A DNA stretch of 32,538 bases from a virus, in the IMG/VR virus record IMGVR_UViG_3300046003_008487, positions 1 through 32,538 of that record. One strand, written 5' to 3'. A program made the translations under genes and the position numbers. The notes under the pieces are model-generated. The model ran no database searches. It was not told the DNA's origin and worked only from the letters and a program-made list of their open reading frames with translations. Positions 2,590-23,054 of this stretch are shown here, one piece after another (position 1 is the first letter of the stretch; each line of letters starts with the position of its first letter).

Positions 2590-2600
2590 ATTATACACTA
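2590..2600 (-). promoter_or_regulatory. TAGTGTATAAT box upstream of RNR
   Basis: This is the same 11-mer as at 539-549, placed 10 nt before the RNR ATG. It overlaps the TAG stop of gmd (2598-2600), so RNR can be expressed separately from the glycan operon. A TTGACA lies further upstream, but 22 nt from the TATAAT, which is too far for a normal sigma-70 promoter. Confidence 0.6.
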
Positions 2601-3653
2601 TTTTAGAAAATTATCTATGTCAAAGCGTACCATTTTTTCTACCAGTTTGTCAAACGAAATTTTTGGTTCCCATCCTAATTCTTTTCTGGCTGGATTTGAA
2701 TCACCCCACAACAAATCAACTTCAGCGGGTCTATAAAATTTTGGATTTATTTTTACTAAACAAGATGATTCAACTTGTTTATCTTCTACGTATCTATCAT
2801 TAATATAATATTTTTCTTCAATACCTTCTCCATGCCAATAGCCTTCTATATGAGCGAAATTAAAAGCTTTTTCAATAAATTCTCGTATTGAATGAGTTTC
2901 ATTGCTTGATAAAACATAATCTTTTGGTTGTTTTTGATTCAGCATTTTCCAAACACCATCAATAAAATCTTCGCTGTCACTCCAATCTCGTTTTGAGTCT
3001 AAATTTCCAAGATTAATTGGTTCAAATATTTGTTTGTTTTTGATGGCATTATGAATTCTAGCAACGCCTTTGCTAATTTTTCTAGTTACAAATTCTTCTC
3101 CTCGTTTGGTTCCTTCATGATTAAATAAAATACCATGCACAGCATATAATTTATAAGAATCACGATATACTTTAACAACATGTCTCGCAGAAGCTTTAGA
3201 TGCTCCGTATGGGCTTCTCGGTCTTAATGGATGATTTATGTCTTGAGGAGAATAAGCAACATCTCCAAATTCTTCACTGGAGCCAGCGGAGTAAAATCTG
3301 CATTCTGGTTTAAATCTTCTTATTGCTTCTAGGCATCTAACTACGCCGGTTGCATTAACATCGAATGTTTGTAATGGTATATCCCAACTACAACCAACAA
3401 AAGACTGAGCGCCAAAATTTATAAAAAAATCTGGTTGAATTTCTCTTACCAAATTATCTATACTAACAGAATCTGTTAAATCTCCATAAACAAATTCAAA
3501 TCTTGAATTTTTTTCAAAGCTTTTACAGTTTATATAATTAGGATTAGCGCTCCTGCGCATCATGCCAAATATCTTTGCATTCGTATTCTGAAGTAAATAT
3601 TCAGCCATGTTTGCGCCGTCTTGGCCTAAAATACCTGTTATTATAATTTTCAT
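2598..3653 (-). CDS. gmd: GDP-mannose 4,6-dehydratase
   Basis: This 351-residue extended SDR enzyme converts GDP-D-mannose to GDP-4-keto-6-deoxymannose, the precursor of fucose, rhamnose and perosamine. The N-terminal Rossmann motif is GILGQDG (7-13). The active site reads SSEEFG (125-130), with Ser in place of the catalytic Thr and Glu127, and YGASK (149-153) gives Tyr149 and Lys153. FNHEGTKRGEEFVTRKI is the family's substrate-binding block. The length is normal for Gmd. The start codon overlaps the stop of the GDPD-like gene in an ATGA. No fucose synthase, Rmd or aminotransferase for the next step is seen here, so the host or another part of the genome must supply it. Confidence 0.95.
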   Translation of the reverse strand: MKIIITGILGQDGANMAEYLLQNTNAKIFGMMRRSANPNYINCKSFEKNSRFEFVYGDLTDSVSIDNLVREIQPDFFINFGAQSFVGCSWDIPLQTFDVNATGVVRCLEAIRRFKPECRFYSAGSSEEFGDVAYSPQDINHPLRPRSPYGASKASARHVVKVYRDSYKLYAVHGILFNHEGTKRGEEFVTRKISKGVARIHNAIKNKQIFEPINLGNLDSKRDWSDSEDFIDGVWKMLNQKQPKDYVLSSNETHSIREFIEKAFNFAHIEGYWHGEGIEEKYYINDRYVEDKQVESSCLVKINPKFYRPAEVDLLWGDSNPARKELGWEPKISFDKLVEKMVRFDIDNFLK

Positions 3654-4102
3654 TGTTGTTTATATTTTTTTATTTCATCGCTGCAAATTCCATAACAATC
3701 GTTGATATTTCCATTGTATCCCAGTTCCGGTAAAACGCAAATGCTATTTGGGTATAGATATTTATTGGGATAAGTCCAAATATATTTTTTGCTGGTTAAA
3801 ACCCAATCTTCGTTCGTATGCCAAAATACATTGCATTTTTTATTTTTTAAAAGTTTAAAAAACGCATCTCCATTTTTTGCGTGCAACCATAATTCTTTTG
3901 TCATTAAAAAATCAAATTTAATTTCGTTTTGGGGTTTATCATGTCCGAGATACCATTTTTCATTGATATTCCAAACGTCTATTTCTACATCATATTTCAA
4001 ATTCAAAGCTTGTTGTATATAGCTAATTGAGTTTTCTAATTTTTTATTTCTTCCGTTTATGTTACCTCTATGAGAAATCAATTTTTTTTTATTTTTGTAC
4101 AT
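3650..4102 (-). CDS. Short GDPD/PLC-like TIM-barrel protein
   Basis: This 150-residue protein has the beginning of a glycerophosphodiester phosphodiesterase-type barrel: SHRGN (10-14), E40-x-D42 in VEIDVW, and GHD (53-55), followed by LWLHAKN. These match the catalytic His, the metal-binding Glu/Asp and the second His of the family. At 150 residues it is much shorter than a full GDPD (about 240), so it is either a compact family known from capsule loci or a truncated copy. It may trim or transfer a glycerophosphate-like group on a glycan; that is inference. It starts inside the tail of the broken methyltransferase and ends in an ATGA overlap with gmd. Confidence 0.65.
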   Translation of the reverse strand: MYKNKKKLISHRGNINGRNKKLENSISYIQQALNLKYDVEIDVWNINEKWYLGHDKPQNEIKFDFLMTKELWLHAKNGDAFFKLLKNKKCNVFWHTNEDWVLTSKKYIWTYPNKYLYPNSICVLPELGYNGNINDCYGICSDEIKKYKQQ

Positions 4103-4648
4103 ATATTATGACTTCATTTGCGAGATTCATTTTTTTTCTATTGTCTATAACTATTGGTTCTTTTTTAAAAACTTTATTTATTTTTTTTTTAGTATATTAA
4201 TATTTTCGGTTGAATCTACATCTTCTATTATCATTAGCCCTTGTTCATTTAGTTTTTTATAATAATATTCTACAAATCAAATTTGATGTTCTATTTTATG
4301 CGATCCATCGTCGATTATTATATCAAACTTTTCATTTTCATTTATGTTTCTTTTATCGTATGCATCGTAGAATAAATATTTAACTTTTTGTGTTTTATAT
4401 TTTTGTTTTACGTTGTTAGATATGTCTACTCCTGTTATGTTTGCGTTTTTAAAATATAAGCTCCATAGTAACAATGAAGCTCCTGATGCAAAGCCTATTT
4501 CTAATAAGGAAATATTTTTATCTTTTAGTGGTTTCAATTTTTCTTCGTAGAATTCAGAAATATAAGAATGGCAATATTCTTTATCAGTTCCTTCGGAAAA
4601 ATGAAAATTACTTAATTTATATTGATCTATTATTTCTATTAATTTCAT
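4089..4648 (-). pseudogene. Class I SAM methyltransferase broken by TGA and a homopolymer frameshift
   Basis: The intact part (123 residues, 4277-4648) has SAM motif I LLEIGFASGAS, GVDIS, and FDIIIDDGSH. It stops at TGA (4277-4279), where a Trp-like position (Q-I-stop-F-V-E) would be expected. In the same frame the sequence continues as a convincing methyltransferase C-terminus (YYYKKLNEQGLMIIEDV), then hits TAA right after a run of ten A (minus strand; T10 at 4181-4190). Adding one base to that run restores a frame ending IDNRKKMNLANEVIIYVQK and then TAA at 4089-4091, which overlaps the next gene's start as the operon's other junctions do. So two lesions separate it from a 186-residue enzyme. 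Sequencing error could explain the homopolymer, less easily the TGA. Confidence 0.85.
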
Positions 4649-4974
4649 ATGTCGTTGTATTTATCATTTATTGCTGATGGTGTTTTAATTACTATTAATT
4701 CGCAATCTTCTAAGAAACAAGGTTTCACGGATTCATTTTTTTCAATAATAAAAATTTTACCTGCTTCCAATAATATATTATTAATTGTCATTGTGCCTCG
4801 GATTAAAAAATTAATTTCTGTGCTGATTTTATGATGATGTTTAGGCCAATCTTCCCCTTTGTGGTGAAGTTTATACGAAACCTCAAATAAGGTTGTTTTA
4901 AACACAGTTGGTTCAAAATTTCCAACAAACCAACCGCCTTTATCCATGAATGGTTTTGAGTCAAATATTTTCAT
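4645..4974 (-). CDS. Small cupin-fold protein
   Basis: This 109-residue single-domain protein reads as a cupin: a Trp-Pro-Lys-His-His-His segment, Glu after ISTE, a G-T-M-T turn, and the second motif around LLEAGKIFII. Such cupins in sugar loci act as epimerases or isomerases, or bind a sugar-phosphate or metal; the substrate cannot be read from the sequence. Its start lies 14 nt inside the nucleotidyltransferase gene, and its TGA overlaps the start of the methyltransferase (ATGA). Being translationally coupled to the nucleotidyltransferase and the RuBisCO-like protein, it is a good candidate for the same pathway. Confidence 0.75.
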   Translation of the reverse strand: MKIFDSKPFMDKGGWFVGNFEPTVFKTTLFEVSYKLHHKGEDWPKHHHKISTEINFLIRGTMTINNILLEAGKIFIIEKNESVKPCFLEDCELIVIKTPSAINDKYNDI

Positions 4975-5686
4975 CGATTTTTTTGAATTTTTCTAAATCT
5001 TGTGGAATGCCAATTGGAAAGTGTTCATTGAAAAAATACTGAACAACCTTCATTCCTTTGTTTATCATATAATTGTAACTAGGACCGACATAAAATTCAT
5101 TATTTACTCTGTCATTCCGAGAAAACATTTCATCACAGGAATCAAAGAAGTAAGATCCTTTTGACCAAAAGTGAAGTCCGTTAGTAGCATAATTGCTAAT
5201 AACTTCTTTTTCTCTAACCTGTGTTATCAATCCTTCATCATTTAATCTGACATAACTATTTTTTGGACTATTTGAATAAAATGTTCCAATTACGCCTTCG
5301 GCCAAGTTCTTTTCAGAAAAAGAAACTAACTTTTCCAAGTTCAAGTCAAAAATTATCTGATCACAATTGGTAATAATGAGTGGTTCACTAGTATTAATAT
5401 ACGGTTTTGCAAAATAGGAAGTTCGTGCGGGTCCATCAGTGAATTCGTCAATAATAATATATTTTACTTTTGACGTATCACAATGGTCTTGGATGTTGTC
5501 GATAATATTAAATTTCTGTTGATGTTCTTTGAGAACACACACAAAAAACTGTACATCACGATGATAAAAGTTGTTGATAACTCTCGCCAACATAGGCGAT
5601 CCATTAACATCCAACAAAGGTTTTGGAATGGTAGTATTAAACCTAGTACCAAGACCCGCAGCCGGTATAACAGCATTCAATGTCAT
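4961..5686 (-). CDS. Sugar-phosphate nucleotidyltransferase
   Basis: This 241-residue GT-A-like nucleotidyltransferase activates a phosphorylated sugar or alcohol with an NTP. It shows AVIPAAGLGTRF at residues 5-16, the catalytic-type Lys in PKPLLDVNGSPM, and the metal-binding Asp in NCDQIIFD. I chose the start at 5686 (MTLNAV), not the upstream ATG at 5701, because it overlaps the stop of the RuBisCO-like gene in an ATGA, the rule throughout this operon. It resembles the C-terminal half of the HAD fusion at 6924-8285, so the two may act in one pathway or be paralogs. Nucleotide and sugar are unknown. Confidence 0.88.
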   Translation of the reverse strand: MTLNAVIPAAGLGTRFNTTIPKPLLDVNGSPMLARVINNFYHRDVQFFVCVLKEHQQKFNIIDNIQDHCDTSKVKYIIIDEFTDGPARTSYFAKPYINTSEPLIITNCDQIIFDLNLEKLVSFSEKNLAEGVIGTFYSNSPKNSYVRLNDEGLITQVREKEVISNYATNGLHFWSKGSYFFDSCDEMFSRNDRVNNEFYVGPSYNYMINKGMKVVQYFFNEHFPIGIPQDLEKFKKIDENI

Positions 5687-6894
5687 TGCTTTAATCCCCA
5701 TGTTTCAATTGCTGTATAATATTCCTCACCATATATTTTTTGAATCGACTGAACCATGGCTTTTACTCCAGCTTTACTTCCCATGGGATGTGACGAAATC
5801 GATCCACCGACATTTGCCATCCAGTTAGAATGTCCTAGTTCAGATTTGATATATTCAATCAACCCCGGATGCATTCCACAACTCAAAGCTGGCACTGAAT
5901 TCAATTCAACCAATTTCTTGATCGTTTTCTTTAAACTATCAGAGTCGCTATTCAAATATCCACCAATCATACCAACATGAAGCGTTGAACACCCACATCG
6001 ACTAGCAATCTCAAAGAGAACAGACTCATCAATAGAATAATCGTGTTGAGAATTTGTCCACAACCTATCTCCACTCTTTTGGTAGTGAAGATATAAATTC
6101 AATCGTAGATCCTTGACCAACTTATACGCACCATATCCACTATGAATATTGATATGAAGTCCGTTTATGCCCAGATTATGGACTTTACGAACACGGTCTT
6201 CCAAATACAAGTGATCACATGTTATAGACGGAGCATATACCATCTTGATATTATTGGTTCTGAGATAGTCACTGATCTTCTCAAGTCGTTTTTCCATCGA
6301 ACAAAACGATTGATTAGAAAGAATTTCATCTTCTTTGATAAAATTACATCCATTATCTGCGTAAATTTTAACTACTTCGACGTAATCATTTACATTCAAG
6401 CCGATTTTAGGTTTAATTATACCGCCAAACAACGGAGTTTTATCGTCAAGTCCACACAACTGACGCATCTCATTCAAGCCACGATTTGGTCCGTTAAATA
6501 TCGATGTGAACTGATTTGAAAATTGAATACTGGTTATTCTACATTTTTGAATCGTGTCAATATCCACCTGTCCACCCATAATAGTGGTTAAAAAGTGGGT
6601 AATTCCATCTTCATAATAATTAAAGTTGGAATCTGGATAGTAAATGTCAACTAATCCTTCGTTTTTAGAAAAATCAACGTTATCAACAACAACTTTTGCA
6701 CAAAACGTTTCAAATAATTCGTTACTTTCAAATTCGGAGCGTTTTTCTGGATTTCCAACACTTTGTCCTAATGCAATAGCTTTCGCTGCATCAAACAAAT
6801 CTGTTTTCGATTTAATGTAATAAGTAACAATATTGCCAGAACATAAATTATCACGGTTTGTAAAAATAAGTTCTTTTATTGATTTTGTTATCAT
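5683..6894 (-). CDS. RuBisCO-like protein (form IV type)
   Basis: This 403-residue protein aligns by eye along the whole large-subunit fold. Conserved (spinach number in brackets): GGIIKPKIGL with K161 [175] and K163 [177]; FIKEDE with K187 [201], D189 [203] and E190 [204], the carbamate/metal set; H270 [294]; H306 [327]; S338 [379]; G363-G364 [403-404]. Changed: loop-6 K334 is Y313, R295 is Tyr, and N123 is Gly. Carboxylase activity is therefore very unlikely, but Mg-dependent enolisation or isomerisation of a ketose-phosphate-like substrate stays possible. It lies between a HAD-nucleotidyltransferase fusion (29 nt away) and a second nucleotidyltransferase (ATGA overlap). Its GC content is clearly higher than the glycosyltransferase genes to the right, suggesting separate acquisition. 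I know of no characterised phage homolog; that is a memory statement. Confidence 0.9.
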   Translation of the reverse strand: MITKSIKELIFTNRDNLCSGNIVTYYIKSKTDLFDAAKAIALGQSVGNPEKRSEFESNELFETFCAKVVVDNVDFSKNEGLVDIYYPDSNFNYYEDGITHFLTTIMGGQVDIDTIQKCRITSIQFSNQFTSIFNGPNRGLNEMRQLCGLDDKTPLFGGIIKPKIGLNVNDYVEVVKIYADNGCNFIKEDEILSNQSFCSMEKRLEKISDYLRTNNIKMVYAPSITCDHLYLEDRVRKVHNLGINGLHINIHSGYGAYKLVKDLRLNLYLHYQKSGDRLWTNSQHDYSIDESVLFEIASRCGCSTLHVGMIGGYLNSDSDSLKKTIKKLVELNSVPALSCGMHPGLIEYIKSELGHSNWMANVGGSISSHPMGSKAGVKAMVQSIQKIYGEEYYTAIETWGLKQ

Positions 6895-6923
6895 GGTGTT
6901 TTAAAAATTTTTATTTTGTTGTT

Positions 6924-8285
6924 TTATTTAGAGTGGTTTTTCAAAAAAAATTCTAGATCTTCAGGAGTTCCAAGTCCCCACATTTTTTCAATATTATATG
7001 TTCTGATTTTTTTTGAATCTTGTATAGCTTCGTTAAATACGGGGCATATATAAAATTCATTATTAACTCTGATGTTTTTATTTATCATTTGTTGAGCATA
7101 TTTAACATAATCGCTTCCTTTGTTCCAATAATAAACACCTACCGTTGCTATATCAGAAATGGGTTTTTTCTCAGCAACTTCAGTAACATAACCAAATTCA
7201 TTAATTTTAGCAAAAGACCATTTTGGGTGTGTAGATTTAAAACATAAAATGCCAGCATCTACGTCTTGTTCAATCATTTTGTACATGAACTCATTGCTAT
7301 CCCATTCAACAAATTGATCTGAGTTTGCCATTAGTAATGATTGATCATTATCAATAAATTTTTTTGCTAAAAGAGTCGTGCATGCTGCACCTTCGGTAAT
7401 TCCATCAACTTCAACTATTTTGCAATTTGGAGTTATTAAATTGAGAAGAGTGTCTAAATTGTATTTTTCTCGATGTTCTTTTTGAACTACGAAAATAAAA
7501 TTAGCTTCAACATTTAAATTTTCAATTACGGTTTGAATCATGGGCTTCCCTTTGACATCAATTAAAGGTTTTGGAAAAGTGTATCCGGCTTGTTGAAATC
7601 TACTTCCTGCTCCGGCCATTGGAATAAGAACGTTTAGTTTTCCTCCTTGCCATTTTGGAATATTCATAGTATTGATTATAAGTTTAGAATTAATTTTTTC
7701 TTCAGTTAGATCTTCTGGATTATTTACTCTTAATACATTGGCTCTGCTTCTGCTTGCAGATAATAAACCAGTGGGTGAATCTTCAATTATAAGAGTTTGT
7801 TCTGGCAATACTTCTATCATACTCATCGCTTTCCAATATATTTCAGGATGGGGTTTTGCATTCTTTACGTCTTCATTTGATAAGATAAGGTCTAGATATT
7901 CAATAAGTCCAGTCTTGGAAAGCATCACTAGTACTGATCTGCGAATAGAGTTCGAACAGCACGCTAGTTTAAAACCTTTATTTCTAAGATTGATAAATAA
8001 TTTGATTAATTTTTCGTTTTTGGATAATTGAGAAATAGCTTGTATTGTTAATCTTTGTTTTTCTTCCCATATCTGTTGATAGTATTTTTTTTCTAAATTT
8101 TTATATTTTGTTAAAAGCTCTAACTTTTGATTGGTTTTTAATCCATCGTATATTGATAAATGCTCTGCGATGGAAATTTCATACTTTGAATCTATTGAGC
8201 GTAAAGATTGGTTCAATGTGTCATAATGAATTTTTTTTGCATCAACCAAAACCCCATCAAGATCGAAAATAATTAGTTTAATCAT
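6924..8285 (-). CDS. HAD phosphatase-nucleotidyltransferase fusion
   Basis: This is a 453-residue two-domain protein. Residues 1-200 are a HAD hydrolase of the phosphoglucomutase/phosphoglycolate type: DLDGV (8-12), Ser111 in CSNS, Lys144 in AKPHPE, and IEDSPTG (168-173). Residues 215-453 are a nucleotidyltransferase: IPMAGAGSRF (221-230), PKPLIDVKGKPM, and an NSDQF metal-site motif. Such fusions can move or remove a phosphate and then form a nucleotide-sugar. The start at 8285 (MIKLIIFDLDG) is 2 nt after the stop of the TylF-like gene; a longer frame from 8333 would overlap that gene. It lies directly upstream of the RuBisCO-like gene. Confidence 0.9.
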   Translation of the reverse strand: MIKLIIFDLDGVLVDAKKIHYDTLNQSLRSIDSKYEISIAEHLSIYDGLKTNQKLELLTKYKNLEKKYYQQIWEEKQRLTIQAISQLSKNEKLIKLFINLRNKGFKLACCSNSIRRSVLVMLSKTGLIEYLDLILSNEDVKNAKPHPEIYWKAMSMIEVLPEQTLIIEDSPTGLLSASRSRANVLRVNNPEDLTEEKINSKLIINTMNIPKWQGGKLNVLIPMAGAGSRFQQAGYTFPKPLIDVKGKPMIQTVIENLNVEANFIFVVQKEHREKYNLDTLLNLITPNCKIVEVDGITEGAACTTLLAKKFIDNDQSLLMANSDQFVEWDSNEFMYKMIEQDVDAGILCFKSTHPKWSFAKINEFGYVTEVAEKKPISDIATVGVYYWNKGSDYVKYAQQMINKNIRVNNEFYICPVFNEAIQDSKKIRTYNIEKMWGLGTPEDLEFFLKNHSK

Positions 8286-8287
8286 TT

Positions 8288-8995
8288 TTAGTATTTTTTT
8301 ATATATGCTGTCGGACATGCATAATTTAAACATTTAATTTCTATATTTTTTTCTTCAATAAATTTATCAACTCCTTTTGATTCACTCCATTTGTGATACC
8401 CATACTCATCAAAAATAATTAATCCGCCTTTTGTTATATTGCTCCATAGATTGTTTAAAGCATTGTATGTAGGTGCTTCTAAGTCAACATCCATATATAA
8501 AAGAGATATTTTAAAACCGGGATTTTTTTCTGAAAATTCTTTGGTCGTTATTGAAATATCACCCTCTATTAATTCAAAATCAGAATTTAAAAATCCGTTT
8601 TGTATTATTTGTTTTGCAAAATCATTTTTAAATGATTTTTCATGTTTAAAAGATCTTTCAGAAAAAAGAATTTGCATCGATTCTTTTTCTTTTTTGCTTG
8701 CAATTGAATTTATTAATTCTTCGCTATTAAAAAAATCGAATCCTATTACTTTTTTTGAGGAATTAGAATTATATAGATTTTTTAATTTTAAAAATGTATA
8801 TATGCCGGTTCCTTTAAAAACACCGCATTCAACTATATCGCCGGGTATATCTTTAACTTCATGGTATAATAAAACTCTAGAAATTAATTTATTAAAAACT
8901 CTTTTATCTTCGCTTAGTATAAAATTATTGAAGTTGTCATATATAGATTGGGATACTTTAGATACTTCTAAATTATCAATTTTTAATTTTTCCAT
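8288..8995 (-). CDS. TylF/macrocin-type O-methyltransferase
   Basis: This 235-residue SAM-dependent methyltransferase belongs to the TylF family. Landmarks are GDIVECGVFKGTG, then VIGFDFF, the metal-type Asp in YMDVDLEAPTYNAL, and GGLIIFDEYG followed by W-x-S and a VDKFI stretch. Family members O-methylate sugar residues, so a late tailoring step on the glycan or nucleotide-sugar is likely. It is 9 nt downstream of the gene at 9005-9754 and 2 nt upstream of the HAD fusion. Very AT-rich. Confidence 0.85.
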   Translation of the reverse strand: MEKLKIDNLEVSKVSQSIYDNFNNFILSEDKRVFNKLISRVLLYHEVKDIPGDIVECGVFKGTGIYTFLKLKNLYNSNSSKKVIGFDFFNSEELINSIASKKEKESMQILFSERSFKHEKSFKNDFAKQIIQNGFLNSDFELIEGDISITTKEFSEKNPGFKISLLYMDVDLEAPTYNALNNLWSNITKGGLIIFDEYGYHKWSESKGVDKFIEEKNIEIKCLNYACPTAYIKKY

Positions 8996-9004
8996 AATCG
9001 TATT

Positions 9005-9754
9005 TTAAAATTTTAGAAACTTTAAACAAAATTTATTATTTTCTAATAGAAAATATTTGATTAGTAGGTGTTGATTTAACATGTGTATTTTATTTATTTT
9101 TTCAGTGCTTTGCGGTTTTTGATTAAATATTTCTTGAGAAAACCTATTTTCTGAATTGCTGTATGGAAATCCAGATGTGATGCATTTTTGATAATCGCTA
9201 TCTTCTTTTAAATAAATTAATAGTTTATCATAAATTCTTGATATAAAATCTATATTTTCGTTATTAGAAATAAAAAACCAATCTGCTAGTCCTGCATTAA
9301 GTTGATTCCAATACATTGAATATAAATAATTATTATCTATTTTATTTAAGTCAGGAATTTCAAAATTTTCTGTGCTTATGTATCCAAGATCTGGCCTGCA
9401 TAATACAATTATATCGTATTTTACATTATTATTTTTAGCGAATTGATTTTTGAGTTCACAAACTTTTTTTCTTGAATAAAAAAAACTAAAAACTTTTTTT
9501 GCGGTTGTTTTATCTAATATATGATAAATATCATCTATTTCATTTGAAAAATTTTCTTGCCTTTCAATTTGATATATTTTTGGATTGAAAATATTAACAA
9601 TCTCAGATTCGATTTCTTTTGAAAAAGAATATATGAACACATCAGCATTATATTGTTTTATTTTATTAACTAGATATGAAAATTTATTCTCATACGCTGT
9701 AGAGTAAGTTGTGCTTGGCTTGAACAATCCAGATATACAAAACGCTACTTTCAT
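9005..9754 (-). CDS. Putative glycosyltransferase-like polysaccharide protein
   Basis: This 249-residue soluble protein begins MKVAFCISGLFKPS. A central YDIIVLCRPDLGY resembles the R-x-D block seen in several poorly described capsule and LPS proteins. The order (KVAFCISG start, N-x-K stretch, R-P-D, then ADWFFISNNEN) fits GT-A-like transferases related to DUF7796/WavE-type families. I cannot name the donor or acceptor. It overlaps the FkbM gene by ATGA. By-eye count of one line (9301-9360) gives 11 of 60 G+C. Confidence 0.55.
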   Translation of the reverse strand: MKVAFCISGLFKPSTTYSTAYENKFSYLVNKIKQYNADVFIYSFSKEIESEIVNIFNPKIYQIERQENFSNEIDDIYHILDKTTAKKVFSFFYSRKKVCELKNQFAKNNNVKYDIIVLCRPDLGYISTENFEIPDLNKIDNNYLYSMYWNQLNAGLADWFFISNNENIDFISRIYDKLLIYLKEDSDYQKCITSGFPYSNSENRFSQEIFNQKPQSTEKINKIHMLNQHLLIKYFLLENNKFCLKFLKF

Positions 9755-10473
9755 TTTATCAAAAACTTTTTATTAATGAATACAATGTCCTCTTCGATTC
9801 CAAGATTATTAGTTAAACAACATTCGACAAAAAAACCATTTTCTTCCATAAATTGAATTAGCTCATTTTTTACTGTAGAGTTCTGATATATTTTATCTAA
9901 GCCAACTTCAGAATGAATAGCTTTTATATTTTGTAGGTGTTCGCCAAAACTTTTTAAAACTTCCATCTCAGCTCCTTGAACGTCCATCCATATTAAATCA
10001 ATTTTATCAATTGAATTATTTTTCAAAAAAGAATCTCCTCTTATGCATTCTACTTGAATTTCTTGTTGTACATAAGATTTACCATAATAATGATTATTAT
10101 TTGCTTTATATAAAGAACTTGCGCCTATGTTACCATTAACAACTTTATGAAACTTGATATAACCATCAGTTGGTCCTATGGCTTTTTCATAAAAATTTAT
10201 GTTTTTTCTATCTTTTATATTATTTTTGCACCATTGTGCTGTTTCTGGAACAGGCTCGAAACAATGAATTTTAGAATTAGGAAACCAATCTGATAATTCT
10301 AATGTTTGACAAGCGTCTCTTGAACCAATATCTAAAACATGATCAATATTTTCTAAATCTATTTTATCTTCGATTTTTTTTATAAAATCAAACGTTAAGC
10401 TTAAAACCGTTCCTTCCCAGTTGTTATATTTTCTTTCTGAATTTGAAGAAAATGCGTTTTTATTGTATTTCAT
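9751..10473 (-). CDS. FkbM-family methyltransferase
   Basis: This 240-residue protein has VLDIGSRDA (SAM motif I), IHCFEPVPETA (acidic end of strand 2 with the F-E-P signature), and IDLIWMDVQGAEMEVLKSF, which is the hallmark of FkbM-type enzymes (D-V-x-G-x-E). FkbM proteins O-methylate sugars or related hydroxyl groups. It is one of at least three intact methyltransferases in this operon, pointing to a heavily methylated glycan. It starts 1 nt after the stop of the preceding WavE-like gene. Confidence 0.9.
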   Translation of the reverse strand: MKYNKNAFSSNSERKYNNWEGTVLSLTFDFIKKIEDKIDLENIDHVLDIGSRDACQTLELSDWFPNSKIHCFEPVPETAQWCKNNIKDRKNINFYEKAIGPTDGYIKFHKVVNGNIGASSLYKANNNHYYGKSYVQQEIQVECIRGDSFLKNNSIDKIDLIWMDVQGAEMEVLKSFGEHLQNIKAIHSEVGLDKIYQNSTVKNELIQFMEENGFFVECCLTNNLGIEEDIVFINKKFLIK

Positions 10474-10474
10474 T

Positions 10475-11071
10475 TTATTTAATATAATCTAATGCTAGTT
10501 TTTCAGATTTATATGATGATAAAAATTTTTTATATTTTATCCAGTAAATATCATTTTCATCATTTATTTTATTTAAGAAAAAATTAAACTGTTCATTATT
10601 TAATTCCATTTCGAAAAAATTTTCAAGTATCATTTGTTCTGAAAATAAAAAATTTGTTTTTTTATTTTTGCTCCATAGCTTTATCATCAAATTTATATCT
10701 CCAGCCATTAGATAATCGCAAATATACCCACCATTATAATTATGCCAAAAAAAGAAGTTTATTTCATGCGTAAAAATATCAATTAGTTTATTAATATCTT
10801 TTACTATATAATCGCTTCTTATTTTTAAAGTTTTTTGAAATCCTAATTCTTTAGCTTTTAATAATCCATTTATAGTAGTTTCTTGTTGATAAAATAAATT
10901 ACCTGTTCCAGGATTTTGTGGTTTTTTATTAAAAATTACATTTTCTTTATTTATGTATTTATGCTCTTCACCTTCCCATGTTGAAAAAATATAGTTTTCA
11001 TCCTTCATAGATTTCTTAATTTCTTCCACATTTACAGAGGGGCCTTGAATTATAATGCACCATTCATTCAT
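10475..11071 (-). CDS. WavE-like LPS biosynthesis protein (copy 1)
   Basis: This 198-residue protein has the WavE pattern: WCIIIQGPS at the start, IFSTWEGE, NLFYQQETTINGL, and a KIRSDYIV block. It is related to the protein at 12986-13651, with which it shares each of these blocks. WavE is a putative glycosyltransferase of LPS core and capsule loci. The start codon directly follows the stop of the upstream gene's neighbour region with no gap. It is shorter than its paralog at the C-terminus. Confidence 0.75.
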   Translation of the reverse strand: MNEWCIIIQGPSVNVEEIKKSMKDENYIFSTWEGEEHKYINKENVIFNKKPQNPGTGNLFYQQETTINGLLKAKELGFQKTLKIRSDYIVKDINKLIDIFTHEINFFFWHNYNGGYICDYLMAGDINLMIKLWSKNKKTNFLFSEQMILENFFEMELNNEQFNFFLNKINDENDIYWIKYKKFLSSYKSEKLALDYIK

Positions 11072-11758
11072 TTATATTCTACCTCTTTTATTATTTAATA
11101 TTTTTTTTATTTTATTTAATTCATTTTCGTATTCCGTGAAATTCCATTTTCCTTTTATTGTCGCTGATGCAATATACGGCCACACATTTGAGTCGTAATG
11201 TCCCCCTCTTTTGGGTTCATCATTGAAATGACATAATCCAGATATTTTTACTTTTTCATTAATTATAGAAGAGCGTTCTTCAAGTTGCCATATATTTAGT
11301 TTACCTGATGAGTCTAAAAATTTTTGTAACGATTCTCTTTTCCATATTGAAGGTTGAATACAAAAAACATATTCGGATTTTTCTGAAATATTAAAAAGAG
11401 TTTTTCTCTCACTTGATTGAGAAAAAATGCAGTTTCCAGGCGCTCTGGTTAATCTGATAAAATCTTTTTTTGAATTAATTAAAATATTTTGATATTCATT
11501 TAAAAGATTTATATTTGGTTTGTCATATATAAGCATATCTTCATGATGAAAAAAAATAATGTTTTCTTTTATTTGATTTATGCAATTTAAAAGTTTTTCA
11601 GAATAACTTAATTCATTATTATAGAGAATTGTTTTTTCATTTTTATATTTTTTATCTGCACAGATTAAAATTTCTGATCCGTAAAATTGATTCCACTGAT
11701 CTAAAAAAATCTCTAACACATCGAAGTATTCGCTATGTGAATAAACTATGTTAATCAT
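11072..11758 (-). CDS. Putative GT-A-like glycosyltransferase
   Basis: This 228-residue protein starts MINIVYSHSEYFDVL. The longer frame from 11782 is less likely because the ATG at 11758 overlaps the previous stop (ATGA). A central YSEKLLNCINQIKENIIFF is followed by HHEDMLIY, where H-E-D may replace the D-x-D metal site, and CIQPSIWKRESL later. This order is familiar from unnamed capsule-locus glycosyltransferases. Donor and linkage unknown. Very low GC (12 of 60 in the line 11101-11160). Confidence 0.6.
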   Translation of the reverse strand: MINIVYSHSEYFDVLEIFLDQWNQFYGSEILICADKKYKNEKTILYNNELSYSEKLLNCINQIKENIIFFHHEDMLIYDKPNINLLNEYQNILINSKKDFIRLTRAPGNCIFSQSSERKTLFNISEKSEYVFCIQPSIWKRESLQKFLDSSGKLNIWQLEERSSIINEKVKISGLCHFNDEPKRGGHYDSNVWPYIASATIKGKWNFTEYENELNKIKKILNNKRGRI

Positions 11759-12303
11759 TGTATTACTTTTATTATTTTCCAACTTTTGTAACCTAAATGA
11801 GGATCTGAATTTGGATCATCTTCTTTTCTTGTTTCTATAACTTCATATTTGATAATTGATCCGAAATCATTAATTAACGCATTTTCAAACTCTTCATAAT
11901 GACACCAATCGTCTATTAATATTACTGTGCCGCTTTTGACGTTTTGTGTTATTTTTGAATACCAAAATTTTCGTAAAGATCCATTTGGACCGTCGATTAA
12001 TATAAAATCATATTTTTTATTTCCAATGTTTAAATTTTCGATTTCGTTTTCGTTATATATAAAACAATGAATTCCAATATGATTGACATGAAAATTTTGA
12101 TTCGATTCAAAAGCTTTGTATTCGACATTCCACTTTTTACTTAAAAGATTAAAAAGTTTTATTGAACTATCTCCGCATCCAAACTCTAAAACATTTAAAT
12201 TATCTTGTTCGGGTAAAAGAGACACTGCATTTTTCATTTCTTCGGCCATATAAGACCATCCGCCTTTAAATACTGAAAAATTCATATTTATATTTTGTTC
12301 CAT
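11755..12303 (-). CDS. Class I SAM-dependent methyltransferase
   Basis: This 182-residue protein begins at the ATG at 12303, which has an AGAAAG 9 nt upstream; ATGs at 12309 and 12285 are alternatives, and a frame up to 12372 runs deep into the preceding gene. Motif I is VLEFGCGDSSIKLF, followed by YKAFESNQNF (acidic strand 2 end), YDFILIDGPNG and VILIDDW. The LIDGP motif is common in small-molecule or sugar methyltransferases. Acceptor unknown; probably a sugar of the glycan. Confidence 0.75.
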   Translation of the reverse strand: MEQNINMNFSVFKGGWSYMAEEMKNAVSLLPEQDNLNVLEFGCGDSSIKLFNLLSKKWNVEYKAFESNQNFHVNHIGIHCFIYNENEIENLNIGNKKYDFILIDGPNGSLRKFWYSKITQNVKSGTVILIDDWCHYEEFENALINDFGSIIKYEVIETRKEDDPNSDPHLGYKSWKIIKVIQ

Positions 12304-12986
12304 ATACATTTTCTTTCTGAAAAATATCCTTTCATATAATAATCTCTTTTGAAACCTTCTGACTGTAGCCAAGGATTTAATGTTGATCCTATATCTAAAT
12401 ATATATTTTTTTTATTTATTTCATATAACTGATGAGCTAATAAATTGCCGAAAGGTCCAGCGCAAAAAAGAAATAATTTATTTGTTAAATTTTGTTGTTT
12501 TATCTGCTCAATTAAAGAATAATTATTTACCCAAGCGCTAAATGAAACAGGATAAAATTTTTCTATTTTAAAAGGAAGATTTTCTATCTTTGATCTTTCA
12601 TTTGCTACTAAATGAACATCGTAATTTCGATAAGATTTAAGAAATGTTTCTTTATAGATAGGATAATTTGCATTAACAAAAATATTTGCAAAAGTCATAT
12701 TTTCTTCATTTTGATCACTGAATTCTCTCATTTTTTGAGCACGATCACCGTTGCAGCATGGGCAACAGGTGCCTATATAATAATTAATATCTTTATATTT
12801 TATAGATTCAATTAATTTTTGTTTATAAAAAATAGGCGTATTTTTTGAAAATTCAAATTCTCTATTGTTTAAGTAATCATTTGAAATAATAGCCCATTCA
12901 CCATCAGCGTATTTGGAAAAACAAAATGGATTTCCTTTTTTAAATTTATCAAATATTTTGTATATTTCTTCAGTAAAATCTTTCAT
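12288..12986 (-). CDS. Putative GT-D/DUF1792-like glycosyltransferase
   Basis: This 232-residue protein has FSKYADGEWAII near residue 24, similar to the R/K-Y-G-D-G-E start of GT-D-like families, and a C-terminal YLDIGSTLNPWL (D-I-G-S-x-L). FLFCAGPFGNLLAHQLYE in between fits the second Rossmann-like half. Several cysteines (CCPCC near residue 75) could bind a metal, which is unusual for the family. The assignment rests on these motifs only. It shares one base with the stop of the WavE-like gene (TAATG). Confidence 0.55.
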   Translation of the reverse strand: MKDFTEEIYKIFDKFKKGNPFCFSKYADGEWAIISNDYLNNREFEFSKNTPIFYKQKLIESIKYKDINYYIGTCCPCCNGDRAQKMREFSDQNEENMTFANIFVNANYPIYKETFLKSYRNYDVHLVANERSKIENLPFKIEKFYPVSFSAWVNNYSLIEQIKQQNLTNKLFLFCAGPFGNLLAHQLYEINKKNIYLDIGSTLNPWLQSEGFKRDYYMKGYFSERKCIWNKI

Positions 12987-13651
12987 TATTGAAAATATTG
13001 TGAATAAGATTTATTTATGTATTTTTTTTCTAAATATTCTTGTTTGTTAAAATGTACGCATTGGGGGTCATATTTAATATCATTTTTTAACCATTTAAAA
13101 TAGTTATCTTCGGTCGCATTTTCTATTAAATATTCAACTTTTGAATTATCTGGAAATAACTCTGTGTATCTTTTTGTTAGTGTTATTTCTGGGTGAATAA
13201 ATTCATAACAATTTTCAAAAGACCATAACTCAATTAATTGATTTATTTCTCCAAAATTAATAAAATCTGTTAAATAACCAGGGCATCTTGGATAAAATGT
13301 ATTATTTGTTTGCCAGTGTAAAAATGCAAATTTGTCTGGTTTTTCATGTAAAAATTTTAATGTTTTTTGAGCATTTGTCATTATAAAATCGCTTCTTATT
13401 TTTAATGCATGCGAAAAGCCAATTTGTCTAGCTACATGTAAGCCAGCAAGCGTGGACATTTTTTGATAATTTAAATTGCAAAAACCCGGTAGTTTTGGTT
13501 TTTTTTGAAAAATAACTAAGTCATTATTATTATAAAAAAAATCCTCTCCAGCCCAAGTGCTAAAAATAACTGTTTCATTAATATTTTTTAAAGAATTTTT
13601 AACTTTTTCTATATCGAAGCTTGGTCCTTGATAAATAATACAGAGTTTCAT
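12986..13651 (-). CDS. WavE-like LPS biosynthesis protein (copy 2)
   Basis: This 221-residue WavE-type protein shows LCIIYQGPSFD at the start, VIFSTWAGED, NLNYQKMSTLAGL and KIRSDFIM, then a long C-terminal part ending near YLEKKYINKSY. The blocks parallel those of the gene at 10475-11071, so the operon has two diverged WavE-like transferases, presumably for different linkages. Its start overlaps the stop of the gene at 13648-14592. Confidence 0.8.
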   Translation of the reverse strand: MKLCIIYQGPSFDIEKVKNSLKNINETVIFSTWAGEDFFYNNNDLVIFQKKPKLPGFCNLNYQKMSTLAGLHVARQIGFSHALKIRSDFIMTNAQKTLKFLHEKPDKFAFLHWQTNNTFYPRCPGYLTDFINFGEINQLIELWSFENCYEFIHPEITLTKRYTELFPDNSKVEYLIENATEDNYFKWLKNDIKYDPQCVHFNKQEYLEKKYINKSYSQYFQ

Positions 13652-14592
13652 GATTTAATATATTTTTTAAAATCGTTATTTTTATCATACCACCATGAGC
13701 TAGCTTTAGCTTTGCTTCTATCTGTATCTAAATAAAGAGAATTCCATTTGGGTCCTTTGGGATCTGTTACTACTATATCTTGAGGTTGAGTTGATAATTT
13801 TCTAATTTTATCTCCATCTTTTATAAGCTCTTTCCATTGTAAAATTCTTTCTTCAAGAGTGCCTGAAGGAGGAGTTCCTCCGCAGAAAATACCAGAAAGA
13901 CCGACATGCATTGATCTTGTTTGATCAGGTTTTAAAGAAAACAAATTAAAATATTCCATTATTCTTTCAATTGCTCCATCATGATGTGTGTGTTCCCACG
14001 GTTTTATTCTTGAATTAAAAAAAAACATATTATTAAATTGAACAACATCTTCAAAGTATAATGGATGAGATAAAAATGGAACCATATATTTTTTTATTGA
14101 TTCCACGGAAACGCAAGATGGTGAAGTGCATTGATAATCACCAATTAATATTTCAGCATCACCATTTAACTCGGTTTCTGGTCTTCTTTTATGTGCTGCA
14201 CAAAAAATTCTACAATATTTTTTTAAATAATTATGATAAATATAATCATTAAATCTTATGTAATCTTCTGTTGGTAAAATATCTTCTTCTCCAATAATTA
14301 CATATTCTGAAGCTTCTTGAGCAGAAATTATATAGCTGGATAAAATATTATGAAAACCAGTTAGTGAGCATTTTGGGTGTTTAGGTTTTACTATTAATTT
14401 TAAATCAACACTTGGGTATTTATTTGCATAATGTTTTATCACTTCATTTTCTTCTTTGTCGTATCCAATTTCAGTATGTATTCTTATTTTATAATTACAA
14501 ATCGTTGCATCTTTATAGATTTGTTCTAGATAAATATATAAAAGATCAGGTTTATTATAAGCTGTTATGGCTATAATATTTTTATCATTCAT
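13648..14592 (-). CDS. GT-A glycosyltransferase, GnT-I/POMGnT-like fold
   Basis: This 314-residue protein starts IIAITAYNKPDLLYIYLEQI, a strand and helix typical of GT-A enzymes. YVIIGEEDILPTEDYI carries an E-E-D in the place of the metal-binding D-x-D. The C-terminal part has W-E-H-T-H-H-D and SMHVGLSGIFCGG. This layout resembles N-acetylglucosaminyltransferase I-like and related bacterial families. A four-base overlap couples it to the epimerase gene upstream. Confidence 0.7.
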   Translation of the reverse strand: MNDKNIIAITAYNKPDLLYIYLEQIYKDATICNYKIRIHTEIGYDKEENEVIKHYANKYPSVDLKLIVKPKHPKCSLTGFHNILSSYIISAQEASEYVIIGEEDILPTEDYIRFNDYIYHNYLKKYCRIFCAAHKRRPETELNGDAEILIGDYQCTSPSCVSVESIKKYMVPFLSHPLYFEDVVQFNNMFFFNSRIKPWEHTHHDGAIERIMEYFNLFSLKPDQTRSMHVGLSGIFCGGTPPSGTLEERILQWKELIKDGDKIRKLSTQPQDIVVTDPKGPKWNSLYLDTDRSKAKASSWWYDKNNDFKKYIKS

Positions 14593-15566
14593 AAAAGTTT
14601 AACGATTTTTTGAGAGCTTAATCCGTCTCCATATGGACAGTTTTTTGAAATTTCATATTGATCATGTATTTTTTTAAATATTTTTTTTAAAAATTTTGGT
14701 TTTTTGCAAAGTTTTATGTGTGCTGTTTTTATTCCTTCCGGTCTTTCGGTTGTTTTTCGACAAACAATAACTTTTTTATTTAAGAAGCAAGCTTCTTCTT
14801 GAATTCCTCCAGAATCGGTTATAACAAGTAAGCAATCTTTTAAATAATCTATTAATTCATTATGTTGCAGTGATTTGCAAATTTTTATATTTTTTGTTTT
14901 TTTTGATGCTTCAATTATTTTAGGATTTGGATGGACAGGAAATAAGAATTGAATTTCTTTGTTTTTTGCGGCGATCTGATCTATTTCTTTCAACCATTCA
15001 TGAATTATATTTATGTTTTCATTTCTGTGAAGAGTTATCAATATTTGTTTTTTATAAGAAGTTTTAATATTCTTTATATTATCTAAAGATGTATTGCCAA
15101 CAACATAAGATTGTCCTTTTGTTAATTCCTTTTTTAAATTTTTTTGAGATATTATGGTTGGGCAAAAATTGATATCTGATATTCTAGATACAATTTGACG
15201 ATATCCTTCTTCTGGATATGGATTTTCGAGATCGTAAGTTCTCAAGCCAGCTTCAATATAAATTATTTTCTTTTTTAAATGATAAGCAACCAAAGCTGTT
15301 GCTGCAACTGTTGCGGTATCTCCTTGGATAATGATTGAATCAAATTCATGAATTATTTTTTCAGCTTTTAAAAAAATTTGTTCAAAAATGGAATTCAATC
15401 TGTTTTCGCAAGAATTTTCTATTTCTATACAATAATCATATTTTTCGAAATTTATTATGTCTGTGTGTTGTTTTATAAATAAACTTTTAATCTTTTTATT
15501 TTCGGCAAGTATCGGTTTTATTTTCAAATATTCAGGTCTTGTTCCGTAAACAGCCAGTATTTTCAT
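14589..15566 (-). CDS. wecB: UDP-N-acetylglucosamine 2-epimerase (non-hydrolysing type)
   Basis: This 325-residue GT-B-fold epimerase interconverts UDP-GlcNAc and UDP-ManNAc. Catalytic landmarks are all present: IIQGDTATV (D83), YIEAGLRT (E105), NPYPEEGYRQ (E119/E120), TLHRNEN (H180) and TDSGGIQEEA, followed by TERPEG. The length is a little under the usual 360-380 residues, mostly from shorter loops. No UDP-ManNAc dehydrogenase (WecC) is in the window, so ManNAc itself may be used, or a host enzyme continues. Confidence 0.92.
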   Translation of the reverse strand: MKILAVYGTRPEYLKIKPILAENKKIKSLFIKQHTDIINFEKYDYCIEIENSCENRLNSIFEQIFLKAEKIIHEFDSIIIQGDTATVAATALVAYHLKKKIIYIEAGLRTYDLENPYPEEGYRQIVSRISDINFCPTIISQKNLKKELTKGQSYVVGNTSLDNIKNIKTSYKKQILITLHRNENINIIHEWLKEIDQIAAKNKEIQFLFPVHPNPKIIEASKKTKNIKICKSLQHNELIDYLKDCLLVITDSGGIQEEACFLNKKVIVCRKTTERPEGIKTAHIKLCKKPKFLKKIFKKIHDQYEISKNCPYGDGLSSQKIVKLL

Positions 15567-16303
15567 AAATCGTTTAAATATTTAAACCCTTTGTTTTTAT
15601 AATGAACAAGATTTCTTCCAAAATGGCTTGCGTGATGGTTGCAAGAGATAGCTACATTGTCAACGCCAAAGCCGTAAGCTGTTTCTTCTTGACTTCCCCA
15701 CATTTCTTTATCGTTTTTTGGGTGTGGTGGAACGTATGTTTTTAGGCCAAGATATTTTTGAATTGAATAAGAAAAATGAACGTCTTCTCCGGAAAGATAA
15801 TGTATTGGCATTTCTCCTTCTCGCCAATATGCGCCAAGCCATTCACGTTTAAAAAACCAACTGTGGCCAACAATATCGACTTCTTCTGTTTTTTCATTTG
15901 GATTTGCCCATCCGTGTCGAACGTAACTAGAATAATTTAAATCATTAAAGATTACGCCTATTGTTCCTAATAAGCCGTTTTTTTCTTTTATTGTTTCATA
16001 ACAATTTTCCAGCCATTTGTTTCCAGGTATAGTATCGTCGTCAAAAACACAAACGTATTCCGTCCTGCAATTCAAAGCGTATGCAAAACGAGCCCATACG
16101 CCAAAATTGCCATTCGATATAGAAGTCGTACATTGATTAGCAATATCTAAATCAAGCGGAATAAACGGGGGTTTATCGCCTTGGTTTTGCCAAATAAAAA
16201 TATTTTTTGGTTTTAACGTTTGATTTGTTAAAGCTTCAAATTGTTTTTTTAAAGTGTGCGGTCTTTTAAAACAATTAAGTACAATAGAAATATCTTGACT
16301 CAT
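15563..16303 (-). CDS. Family 2 glycosyltransferase
   Basis: This 246-residue soluble enzyme begins ISIVLNCFKRPHTLKKQFEAL, followed by NGNFGVWARFAYAL and YVCVFDDDTIPGNKWL with the D-D-D metal site. The C-terminal YLSGEDVHFSYSIQ has the E-D motif of the acceptor-side catalytic base. There is no membrane segment. It overlaps both neighbours by four bases. Confidence 0.88.
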   Translation of the reverse strand: MSQDISIVLNCFKRPHTLKKQFEALTNQTLKPKNIFIWQNQGDKPPFIPLDLDIANQCTTSISNGNFGVWARFAYALNCRTEYVCVFDDDTIPGNKWLENCYETIKEKNGLLGTIGVIFNDLNYSSYVRHGWANPNEKTEEVDIVGHSWFFKREWLGAYWREGEMPIHYLSGEDVHFSYSIQKYLGLKTYVPPHPKNDKEMWGSQEETAYGFGVDNVAISCNHHASHFGRNLVHYKNKGFKYLNDL

Positions 16304-17142
16304 AATGCAGATTTAATTAAATTAAATATTTCAACTGGTTTGGATTTTATATATTCTATCATTTTATTTGATTCATAATCAAAGAAACTTTCGTGAACTA
16401 CGGCGGTATAATCAGTGGTCACGACAGACAAACCCATCAATCTTGCCTCTATACACACTCTAGAAAGAGTCTCTGGGCTTCTTGGAAAGAAGACATAGGT
16501 AGAGTATCTAGAAAGATTCTTAAGAAATGTATGATGATCTGTCTTTGGAAGCAATTCATATTTTAAATGAACCTTTTTACAGAAATCGATAGAAACGTCT
16601 CTTCCTTTAATTCCATAGTGGTCTTCGCCTAAAATTGCTGCTTTTCCATTTTTGGGTGTTCGAGAAAGGGCTTCAATTAAATCCATTGTTTTCTCAGACC
16701 ATAAATTTCCTGAAAAATTAACAATATTTGAAAGCTCTAAGTTTTTATCAAAAATTGATTTTTGAAGGCCGCTTTGTGTTAATACAAATTTAGCATTTTT
16801 ATATAGTTCAAAATGTATTATATCAGATTTAGGGGCTAGAAAATTTTCGTAATAACAAGGATTTCTTGTTTGCAAAAATTTATAATCATGTTCAGTTATT
16901 ATATATTTTTTTGGATATAGAAATTGTTCGGCCTCTTCAGAGATAAAATAAAAATTTGACAGTATAAAAAGATCTATCTCTGTAAATTCTTTAAACTTGA
17001 TATTAAATTCAAATGTTGTAATAAATTCGCATTTATGTTCTCTGTTTAAAACTTTAATAAGTTCGTTATTATTTGATTCTGCTCCTCCATTTTGCAGTTC
17101 AGAATATTTTTCATCTGATATTAATAATATTTTCTTGCTCAT
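16300..17142 (-). CDS. GT4-like glycosyltransferase
   Basis: This 280-residue GT-B protein starts at 17142 (MSKKILLISDEKYSEL), one base after the previous stop; an upstream ATG at 17169 would overlap that gene. NGGAESNNNEL is the N-terminal glycine loop, and YVFFPRSPETLSRVCIEA is the donor-binding E-x7-E region of GT4 enzymes. It is shorter than usual (about 350-400), so it may be a minimal version. Confidence 0.82.
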   Translation of the reverse strand: MSKKILLISDEKYSELQNGGAESNNNELIKVLNREHKCEFITTFEFNIKFKEFTEIDLFILSNFYFISEEAEQFLYPKKYIITEHDYKFLQTRNPCYYENFLAPKSDIIHFELYKNAKFVLTQSGLQKSIFDKNLELSNIVNFSGNLWSEKTMDLIEALSRTPKNGKAAILGEDHYGIKGRDVSIDFCKKVHLKYELLPKTDHHTFLKNLSRYSTYVFFPRSPETLSRVCIEARLMGLSVVTTDYTAVVHESFFDYESNKMIEYIKSKPVEIFNLIKSAL

Positions 17143-17143
17143 T

Positions 17144-17938
17144 TTAAATATTGTTTTTGATAAAATCAACTATTTCATTTTGATTTTGTTTGATGTTTTT
17201 AGTTTTAAAAACTTTCATTACTTTATCTTCTTCATATTTTTTAATAAACATAGAGTCTCTGATTTCGTCTTCACAATCTGCTATTATGCAGAGCGTATTG
17301 ATTTTTTGCATAGAAGACATAGATTTGAAACAGCTGTCTAATCCTATTAGTGATGAGCAATATTTAACCGTTGATAAGCTGTCTAAAATATTATCGAAAC
17401 AAACGAATTTGATATTTTCTTCTTGTTGCATTCCGTATTCTAAAAGTTCTTTTTTTGATCCATATATTAAGTAATTATTTTTATTATTGATTATGTTTTT
17501 AGTTATTGATAATGGAATTGTTCTAGCAGGTAAATTTTTAATTTCGTAAACTGAATTTGCAAAGCCACTTCTGAATGGATGGATTCCAATAATTGGTTTT
17601 TTGTTTGAAAAGCTATTTACTAAATTTTCTGCCGTCAGATTAGATTCTATTCCAAAATTAAATTTACTATAAAAAGCTCTTGGAGTTTCATGTATTTTAA
17701 AATTCTTTATCTGAATAAGATTTTTAACTATGAATTCTGTTTGTTTTGCAAGAGAAAATATATTCTCGAATTCATAATAAAAACAATTGTAAATACCAAG
17801 GTGGTCAAAAATTGATTTTGCATTTTTATAATGCATATGTATCAAATACTGCTCGGAAGGATTATTTATTATATAATCGTAGCATTGCAGAAAATCTCCT
17901 AATCCTCCTCTTATGTACAAAATTCTATTATTTAACAT
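17144..17938 (-). CDS. GT9/heptosyltransferase-like glycosyltransferase
   Basis: This 264-residue GT-B protein shows YIRGGLGDFLQC (the G-G-L-G-D loop), PIIGIHPFRSGF, YLIYGSKKELL and SLIGLDSCFKSMSS, the order seen in ADP-heptose:LPS heptosyltransferases (GT9). It is the first gene of the glycan operon. Upstream is AAGTGT directly before the ATG and no Shine-Dalgarno sequence. No heptose-synthesis genes are seen, so the donor sugar is open. Confidence 0.75.
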   Translation of the reverse strand: MLNNRILYIRGGLGDFLQCYDYIINNPSEQYLIHMHYKNAKSIFDHLGIYNCFYYEFENIFSLAKQTEFIVKNLIQIKNFKIHETPRAFYSKFNFGIESNLTAENLVNSFSNKKPIIGIHPFRSGFANSVYEIKNLPARTIPLSITKNIINNKNNYLIYGSKKELLEYGMQQEENIKFVCFDNILDSLSTVKYCSSLIGLDSCFKSMSSMQKINTLCIIADCEDEIRDSMFIKKYEEDKVMKVFKTKNIKQNQNEIVDFIKNNI

Positions 17939-23044: not shown

Positions 23045-23054
23045 ATTTACACTT
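23044..23054 (-). promoter_or_regulatory. AAGTGTAAATA box upstream of the 620-residue structural gene
   Basis: A variant of the phage box, overlapping the TAA stop of the FtsZ-like gene. Here 25 nt lie between box and ATG, filled by the hairpin, unlike the 6-10 nt seen elsewhere. It therefore counts as weaker evidence. Confidence 0.4.

Follow-up and report, generated by a model that had tools for sequence, protein, structure and literature searches.

To our knowledge, every known function of RuBisCO-like proteins (RLPs) is catabolic or belongs to salvage. The closest described relatives are MtnW (a form IV RLP), OiaX (3-oxo-isoapionate-4-phosphate decarboxylase), the RLPs linked to four-carbon kinases and form III RuBisCO; related sugar activation is found in the GmhB/HddC heptose pathway and in cyanophage clusters. 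Here we describe an RLP encoded on a 32.5-kb IMG/VR virus record (IMGVR_UViG_3300046003_008487, positions 1 to 32,538, hereafter the window), where it adjoins a nucleotidyltransferase (NT), a cupin and a short GDPD-like phosphodiesterase gene. From our comparative analyses we conclude that these genes form a conserved cassette inside glycan gene clusters, and we consider it fairly probable that in this phage-borne cassette the RLP enolises or isomerises a phosphorylated keto-sugar, the NT activates the product and neighbouring glycosyltransferases use the donor. Cyanophage sugar clusters have been surveyed and interpreted as makers of altered surface polysaccharide, with RuBisCO unmentioned (PMC7824862), and the Global Ocean Sampling contained 65 RuBisCO homologue sequences outside all four forms (PMC1821046). 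Searches of the openly accessible literature on RLPs with phages, polysaccharides or Pelagibacter revealed no description of the cassette.

A conserved RLP cassette in glycan gene clusters

The cassette genes of the window, the adjoining fusion gene and the border between them are as follows.

5683..6894, minus strand: RLP, 403 aa (PF00016, alignment, active-site table, tree, AlphaFold2 (AF2) model)
4961..5701, minus strand: NT, 246 aa (241 aa if translation begins at the ATGA of 5686; PF00483 / phrog_3980)
4645..4974, minus strand: small metal-site cupin, 109 aa (HxH...E motif)
3650..4102, minus strand: short GDPD-like phosphodiesterase, 150 aa (alignment, AF2 fold)
6924..8285, minus strand: fusion of a HAD domain (beta-PGM/phosphatase-type) and a nucleotidyltransferase (HAD-NT), 453 aa, whose open reading frame (ORF) could open at 8333 (HAD_2 and NTP_transferase)
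6923..6930, no strand: breakpoint of the mosaic, with the RLP cassette on one side and the HAD-NT/glycosyltransferase block on the other (DNA alignment)

Relatives of the RLP were found in 17 IMG/VR stretches (16 loci) by sequence and in 237 by profile, of which 80 were kept, and a further 10 loci came from species genomes; removal of near-copies left 59 non-redundant RLP loci for the co-occurrence counts. Within 5 kb of the RLP, the NT was present in 57 loci, the GDPD-like gene in 51 and the cupin in 47, and all four genes occurred together in 40. Counted from the cupin, an RLP was present in 50 of 59 loci and an NT in all 59, and counted from the GDPD-like gene, an NT was present in 62 of 70 loci and an RLP in only 13. 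The cupin was found in just 7 of the 57 GDPD loci without RLP, against 47 of the 59 with it (Fisher p 7e-14). These counts identify the RLP and the cupin as a close pair, and the GDPD-like protein and the NT as a wider association. Evolutionary distances correlated with those of the RLP for the NT (r 0.52), the cupin (0.35) and the GDPD-like protein (0.28; Mantel p 0.001-0.004). The co-occurrence counts show an association beyond chance, and the distances indicate that the RLP and its partners are co-inherited with frequent swapping. The original prediction, an RLP-centred module for sugar-phosphate activation, holds as regards recurrent association, co-divergence of RLP, NT and cupin, and the active-site pattern of the RLP; it fails in its composition, as HAD-NT is foreign to the module and the GDPD-like gene (4102-3650), a member of it, was absent from the four-gene reading.

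It is well supported that the cassette activates a sugar (or polyol) phosphate that feeds glycan work. The cassette parts are tied to such work by fusions: in L020 the NT carries a HAD-like domain (assigned by sequence motif) at its C-terminus, in L031 the GDPD-like protein is joined to a putative glycosyltransferase, and in L018 the cupin is joined to a methyltransferase-like domain. A gene of the short-chain dehydrogenase/reductase (SDR) family lies at most 4 kb from the RLP in 28 of the 59 loci. The NT matches PF00483 with 40.7 bits (cut-off 21.2), and its nearest solved relative by profile, 4evw, is annotated only as a sugar pyrophosphorylase. Residues H46, H48 and E53 of the cupin motif are invariant; the Cupin_7 profile matches 9 of 11 cupin members (best 4e-7), with the window cupin below the cut-off, and matches to cupin-structure profiles are weak. 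In the GDPD-like protein the HR, E-x-D, H and H-x-K motif residues are invariant, and its AF2 model (pLDDT 92.6) aligns with GDPD 1o1z at Z 10.8 over 142 residues (VIA-align), with GDPDs making up most of the top matches. With Foldseek alone, no match to this protein of about 150 aa reached E 0.001, and Pfam GDPD matched 1 of 11 members (E 0.026) and not the window protein. Viral glycan clusters very often hold this short family, which has no Pfam name; it is present in at least 590 IMG/VR stretches.

On the minus strand of the window the order is glycosyltransferase/methyltransferase block, HAD-NT, RLP, NT, cupin, a methyltransferase ORF, the GDPD-like gene and a dehydratase-like gene. All four ORFs claimed at the outset (HAD-NT, RLP, NT and cupin) exist on this strand, and their assignments stand, namely HAD_2 and NTP_transferase on one protein, RuBisCO_large, NTP_transferase, and a cupin by its HxH...E motif; the two NTs are related as stated, at 37% identity. 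The tight coupling that had been claimed applies to RLP and NT (ATGA overlap), NT and cupin (14 bp) and cupin and methyltransferase ORF (ATGA), but not to HAD-NT and RLP, which are separated by a 29-nt spacer.

The RLP clade, its active site and the proposed pathway

The RLP matches PF00016 (RuBisCO_large) with 97.8 bits against a cut-off of 30.1, and its best whole-sequence similarity is to form III RuBisCO (TIGR03326, 141 bits). Its AF2 model gave Z 38.0 to both MtnW (2zvi) and form III RuBisCO (2d69), within a range of Z 34-38 across RuBisCO and RLP structures. The window protein keeps the carbamate-site residue K187, the metal ligands D189 and E190, and K161/K163, and carries Y313 in place of the loop-6 lysine; carbamylation of K187 is predicted from this residue pattern. 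In an alignment of 59 clade members (spinach numbering), K175, K177, K201, D203 and E204 are retained in all, and the replacements are E60G, T65N, N123G, H294Q, R295K, H298D, K334Y and G380C. All 59 combine equivalents of the carbamate Lys201, Asp203 and Glu204 with Tyr, Gly, Gly and Gln at RuBisCO Lys334, Glu60, Asn123 and His294. The pattern is uniform in 59 of 59 at nearly all positions, as is typical of a working enzyme. Being a RuBisCO homologue without the carboxylase residues, the RLP falls within the definition of form IV. By established RuBisCO chemistry, metal-assisted enolisation should stay possible and carboxylation should not. With E60, N123, H294 and K334 lost and the metal triad kept, we infer that enolisation is possible and that CO2 fixation is very unlikely.

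When form I, OiaX, MtnW and kinase-linked RLPs served as references, the 59 members fell into one group of the tree (support 100/98), the outer placement of which is unsure given the small reference set and long branches. Azospirillum and one SAR11 lineage stand at its base, and the other SAR11 members are nested among viruses. The clade was found almost only in viruses: profile scans gave 237 IMG/VR stretches against 10 loci in 84,980 species genomes, in which a single-sequence query found none. It is a distinct and virus-dominated clade. Two different queries found no such RLP in 50,697 phage records, and plasmid matches belonged to other RLP/RuBisCO families (at most 31% identity).

The 10 species-genome loci come from SAR11, a metagenome-assembled genome (MAG) of Crocinitomicaceae, an alphaproteobacterial single cell and Azospirillum oleiclasticum; the MAG locus lies on a 3.3 kb contig, itself possibly viral. 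A sample of 297 genomes from the SAR11 order, 385 from the class of Azospirillum and 395 from the phylum of Crocinitomicaceae yielded one new locus, in SAR11, and thus no well-studied bacterium whose glycan structure is known. Several SAR11 genomes (L092-L095, e.g. L094:8741-12703) hold a compact island of GDPD-like gene, NT, RLP, NT and glycosyltransferase between thyX and mrp/hflK. As the cassette stands alone between housekeeping genes there, it needs no other pathway genes nearby; the first NT of this island is strongly diverged and may be inactive. In Azospirillum oleiclasticum, a named strain, the order is GDPD-like gene, RLP, cupin and NT (L096:3891-6749). Other RLP loci are flanked by genes for T4-type DNA polymerase, UvsX and PhoH, and the cassette therefore occurs in unrelated phage types.

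We propose that Mg2+, held by carbamylated K187, D189 and E190, would let the RLP convert a phosphorylated keto-sugar to its enediolate. In an enzyme lacking E60, N123, H294 and K334, this intermediate would be reprotonated rather than receive CO2, and an isomer or epimer would result. A second isomerisation or epimerisation could fall to the metal-site cupin. The NT would then join the sugar phosphate to a nucleoside monophosphate (NMP), yielding a nucleoside diphosphate (NDP) sugar, and neighbouring glycosyltransferases would place the sugar on a host surface glycan or on the virion. The GDPD-like protein, common to this cassette and its HAD-NT sister, would be an accessory phosphodiesterase, perhaps in editing, turnover or phosphodiester chemistry. 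Both the RLP chemistry and the cupin step are inferred.

Several points weigh against this pathway. Loop 6 of the RLP (309-315) is poorly predicted in the AF2 model, and the phosphate-site residue R295 is Lys and T65 is Asn, which makes even the phosphate pattern of the ligand unsure. The NT matched no NCBIfam model at cut-off, and its specificity cannot be read from the sequence. Some RLP loci and the SAR11 cassettes lack the cupin, which is therefore not indispensable.

Alternative readings, the HAD-NT sister cassette and the surroundings

The RLP could instead be a carbon-carbon bond enzyme, the enediolate of which attacks an aldehyde in the manner of an aldolase, or which rearranges or decarboxylates the skeleton like the 3-oxo-isoapionate enzymes; the product would be a branched or otherwise unusual sugar. 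RLPs that act in the catabolism of D-apiose catalyse decarboxylation and transcarboxylation (PMC6302742), and in cyanophages S-SM2 and Bellamy, clusters that contain a GDPD-like gene and a related NT have class II aldolase genes and no RLP. However, OiaX and the four-carbon-kinase RLPs retain H294, R295 and K334, which the cassette clade has lost, and the cassette has no conserved aldehyde source or kinase; we regard this alternative as unlikely. More doubtful still is the idea that the cassette makes no glycan donor but a small-molecule conjugate, serving as a signal or secondary metabolite. Cyanophages have been proposed to hold secondary-metabolite clusters that modify sugars or amino acids (PMC7824862), but the neighbours of the RLP are mainly glycosyltransferases, methyltransferases and SDRs, and a fusion of the GDPD-like protein with a putative glycosyltransferase is known.

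According to the original prediction, HAD-NT, RLP, NT and cupin act in a single four-step pathway and were transferred together. In its favour, the genes adjoin in the window, and at most 5 of the 59 RLP loci also carry an apparent HAD-NT; the 706-aa protein of L096 that was classed as HAD-NT probably reflects a spurious ORF in GC-rich DNA. Against it, DNA alignment places a mosaic border at about 6924-6930, exactly between HAD-NT and RLP, where the 29-nt spacer also lies. Positions 4658-6930 (cupin, NT and RLP) are homologous to L003 at 82% identity; 6923-8288 (HAD-NT), absent from that match, to L038 at 72%; and 6926-12397 (HAD-NT and the upstream block) to L012 at 71%. The closest proteins are likewise on different contigs, with RLP, NT and cupin 92, 86 and 76% identical to those of L002/L003, HAD-NT 77% to L037/L038 and the upstream genes up to 78% to L012. 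Therefore, three genes and not four moved together. G+C content does not mark a jointly moved unit, as had been suggested: it is 30.2% in HAD-NT, 34.9% in the RLP, 32.7% in the NT and 29.7% in the cupin, and the low values noted earlier belong to the glycosyltransferase block (mostly 22-28%); tail genes have 28-35%, the ribonucleotide reductase gene 37.8% and the window 30.0%. HAD-NT and RLP also avoid each other: the 454-aa fusion is present in 41 of 57 GDPD loci without RLP and in none of 13 with it (p 1.4e-6). A four-gene unit that includes HAD-NT is ruled out by the DNA mosaic and the distribution, and we consider a single four-step pathway very improbable.

HAD-NT belongs instead to a separate, alternative cassette of HAD-NT and GDPD-like protein that avoids the RLP, and adjustment of the phosphate by HAD is no general part of the RLP pathway. 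HAD-NT matches PF00483 with 45.7 bits (cut-off 21.2), and its best HAD subfamily, TIGR02009, stays below cut-off. In the NT tree most RLP-linked NTs stand apart from the HAD-NT domains, and several NTs from cupin-less RLP cassettes, with HAD absent, branch among the HAD-NT proteins. The GDPD-like proteins of the two cassettes are intermixed (27 label changes against a shuffled mean of 37), so that this protein serves both. Together, the mutual exclusion, the NT tree and the shared GDPD-like protein suggest that RLP and HAD are alternative routes supplying the NT; in the sister cassette the HAD domain, replacing the RLP, would provide its substrate.

An RLP of methionine salvage, apiose-type catabolism or auxiliary carbon metabolism that is merely located in a glycan cluster is the least probable alternative. 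In its favour, the solved structures nearest in fold include the MtnW enolase. Against it, the RLP scores far below cut-off with the MtnW models (127.9 against 409 and 89.7 against 513.6 bits) and with OiaX (92.4 against 700), the clade is separate, the glycan context is constant, and mtn and apiose genes are absent among the recurrent RLP neighbours.

Other features in the neighbourhood of the cassette are as follows.

4277..4648, minus strand: shortened methyltransferase ORF (ATGA overlap with the cupin)
2598..3653, minus strand: SDR resembling GDP-mannose 4,6-dehydratase, the next gene after the GDPD-like gene (PF16363, 354 bits)
8288..17938, minus strand: glycan block encoding glycosyltransferases, methyltransferases and a homologue of UDP-GlcNAc 2-epimerase, which presumably use the activated sugar (domain matches)

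The methyltransferase ORF recurs in 5 loci only and hence is no conserved module member. It ends after 123 aa, and the frame past the stop, to 4103, still resembles relatives of 199-216 aa; it is probably a decayed gene with a premature stop. Of the large genes next to the glycan cluster, that for an adenosylcobalamin-dependent ribonucleoside-triphosphate reductase (600-2579; TIGR02505, 366 bits) has the highest G+C content. A tubulin/FtsZ-family protein is encoded at 23047-24261 (Pfam Tubulin 44.9 bits, weak PhuZ match). The tail genes are lambda-J-like, and the virus appears to be a siphovirus whose tail is of the lambda type. In the tail fibre (24782-28000), structured ends flank a long low-complexity repeat of the SSGTSG type. 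No Rfam matches or tRNA genes were found in the window.

Comparison with known systems

A clade fixed in nucleotide-sugar cassettes would give the RuBisCO fold an anabolic role. We raise, as a tentative and rather doubtful proposal, that an undescribed virus-dominated clade of the RuBisCO superfamily acts in anabolic nucleotide-sugar synthesis, its enediolate chemistry building or rearranging the skeleton of a surface sugar, with exchange between viruses and SAR11. A clade fixed in such cassettes would also mean that many RuBisCO homologues in aquatic viral metagenomes are unrelated to carbon fixation, which would affect gene-count estimates of viral 'auxiliary carbon metabolism'. The clade may account for some of the unassigned Global Ocean Sampling homologues (PMC1821046), a candidate link only. 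The cassette also offers a small, defined gene set for finding the sugar made by phages, SAR11 and Azospirillum.

Among RuBisCO relatives, the cassette RLP resembles MtnW in its fold (Z 38.0 to 2zvi), its metal triad with a predicted carbamylated Lys and the loss of the RuBisCO loop-6 lysine, but differs in K177, N65, Q294, K295, D298 and Y334, in forming a separate clade and in having glycan neighbours and no mtn genes. With OiaX and the four-carbon-kinase RLPs it shares the superfamily, sugar-phosphate chemistry and the metal triad; these, however, lie beside catabolic kinases and transporters, whereas the cassette RLP lies beside an NT. Form III RuBisCO differs in E60, N123, H294 and K334, all replaced here.

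The GmhB/HddC heptose activation pathway resembles the sister cassette in its logic of HAD followed by NT, a HAD phosphatase there preceding a sugar-1-phosphate guanylyltransferase, and HddC is a weak match of the NT (43.8 bits), yet this lies far under the HddC cut-off of 300 and RLP cassettes are mostly without HAD. The cultured cyanophages S-CAM9, S-SM2 and Bellamy come close in gene content: alongside glycosyltransferases they carry the GDPD-like gene and a HAD-NT or NT-HAD protein, and a distant cupin occurs in Bellamy and SynMITS9220M01. In S-SM2 and Bellamy (L266 and L267), genes for a class II aldolase and a short phosphoheptose isomerase stand in place of the RLP, joined in S-SM2 by a transketolase gene; they are perhaps another route of sugar supply. 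What sets the present cassette apart from these cyanophage nucleotide-sugar clusters is its RLP, which is present in none of them.

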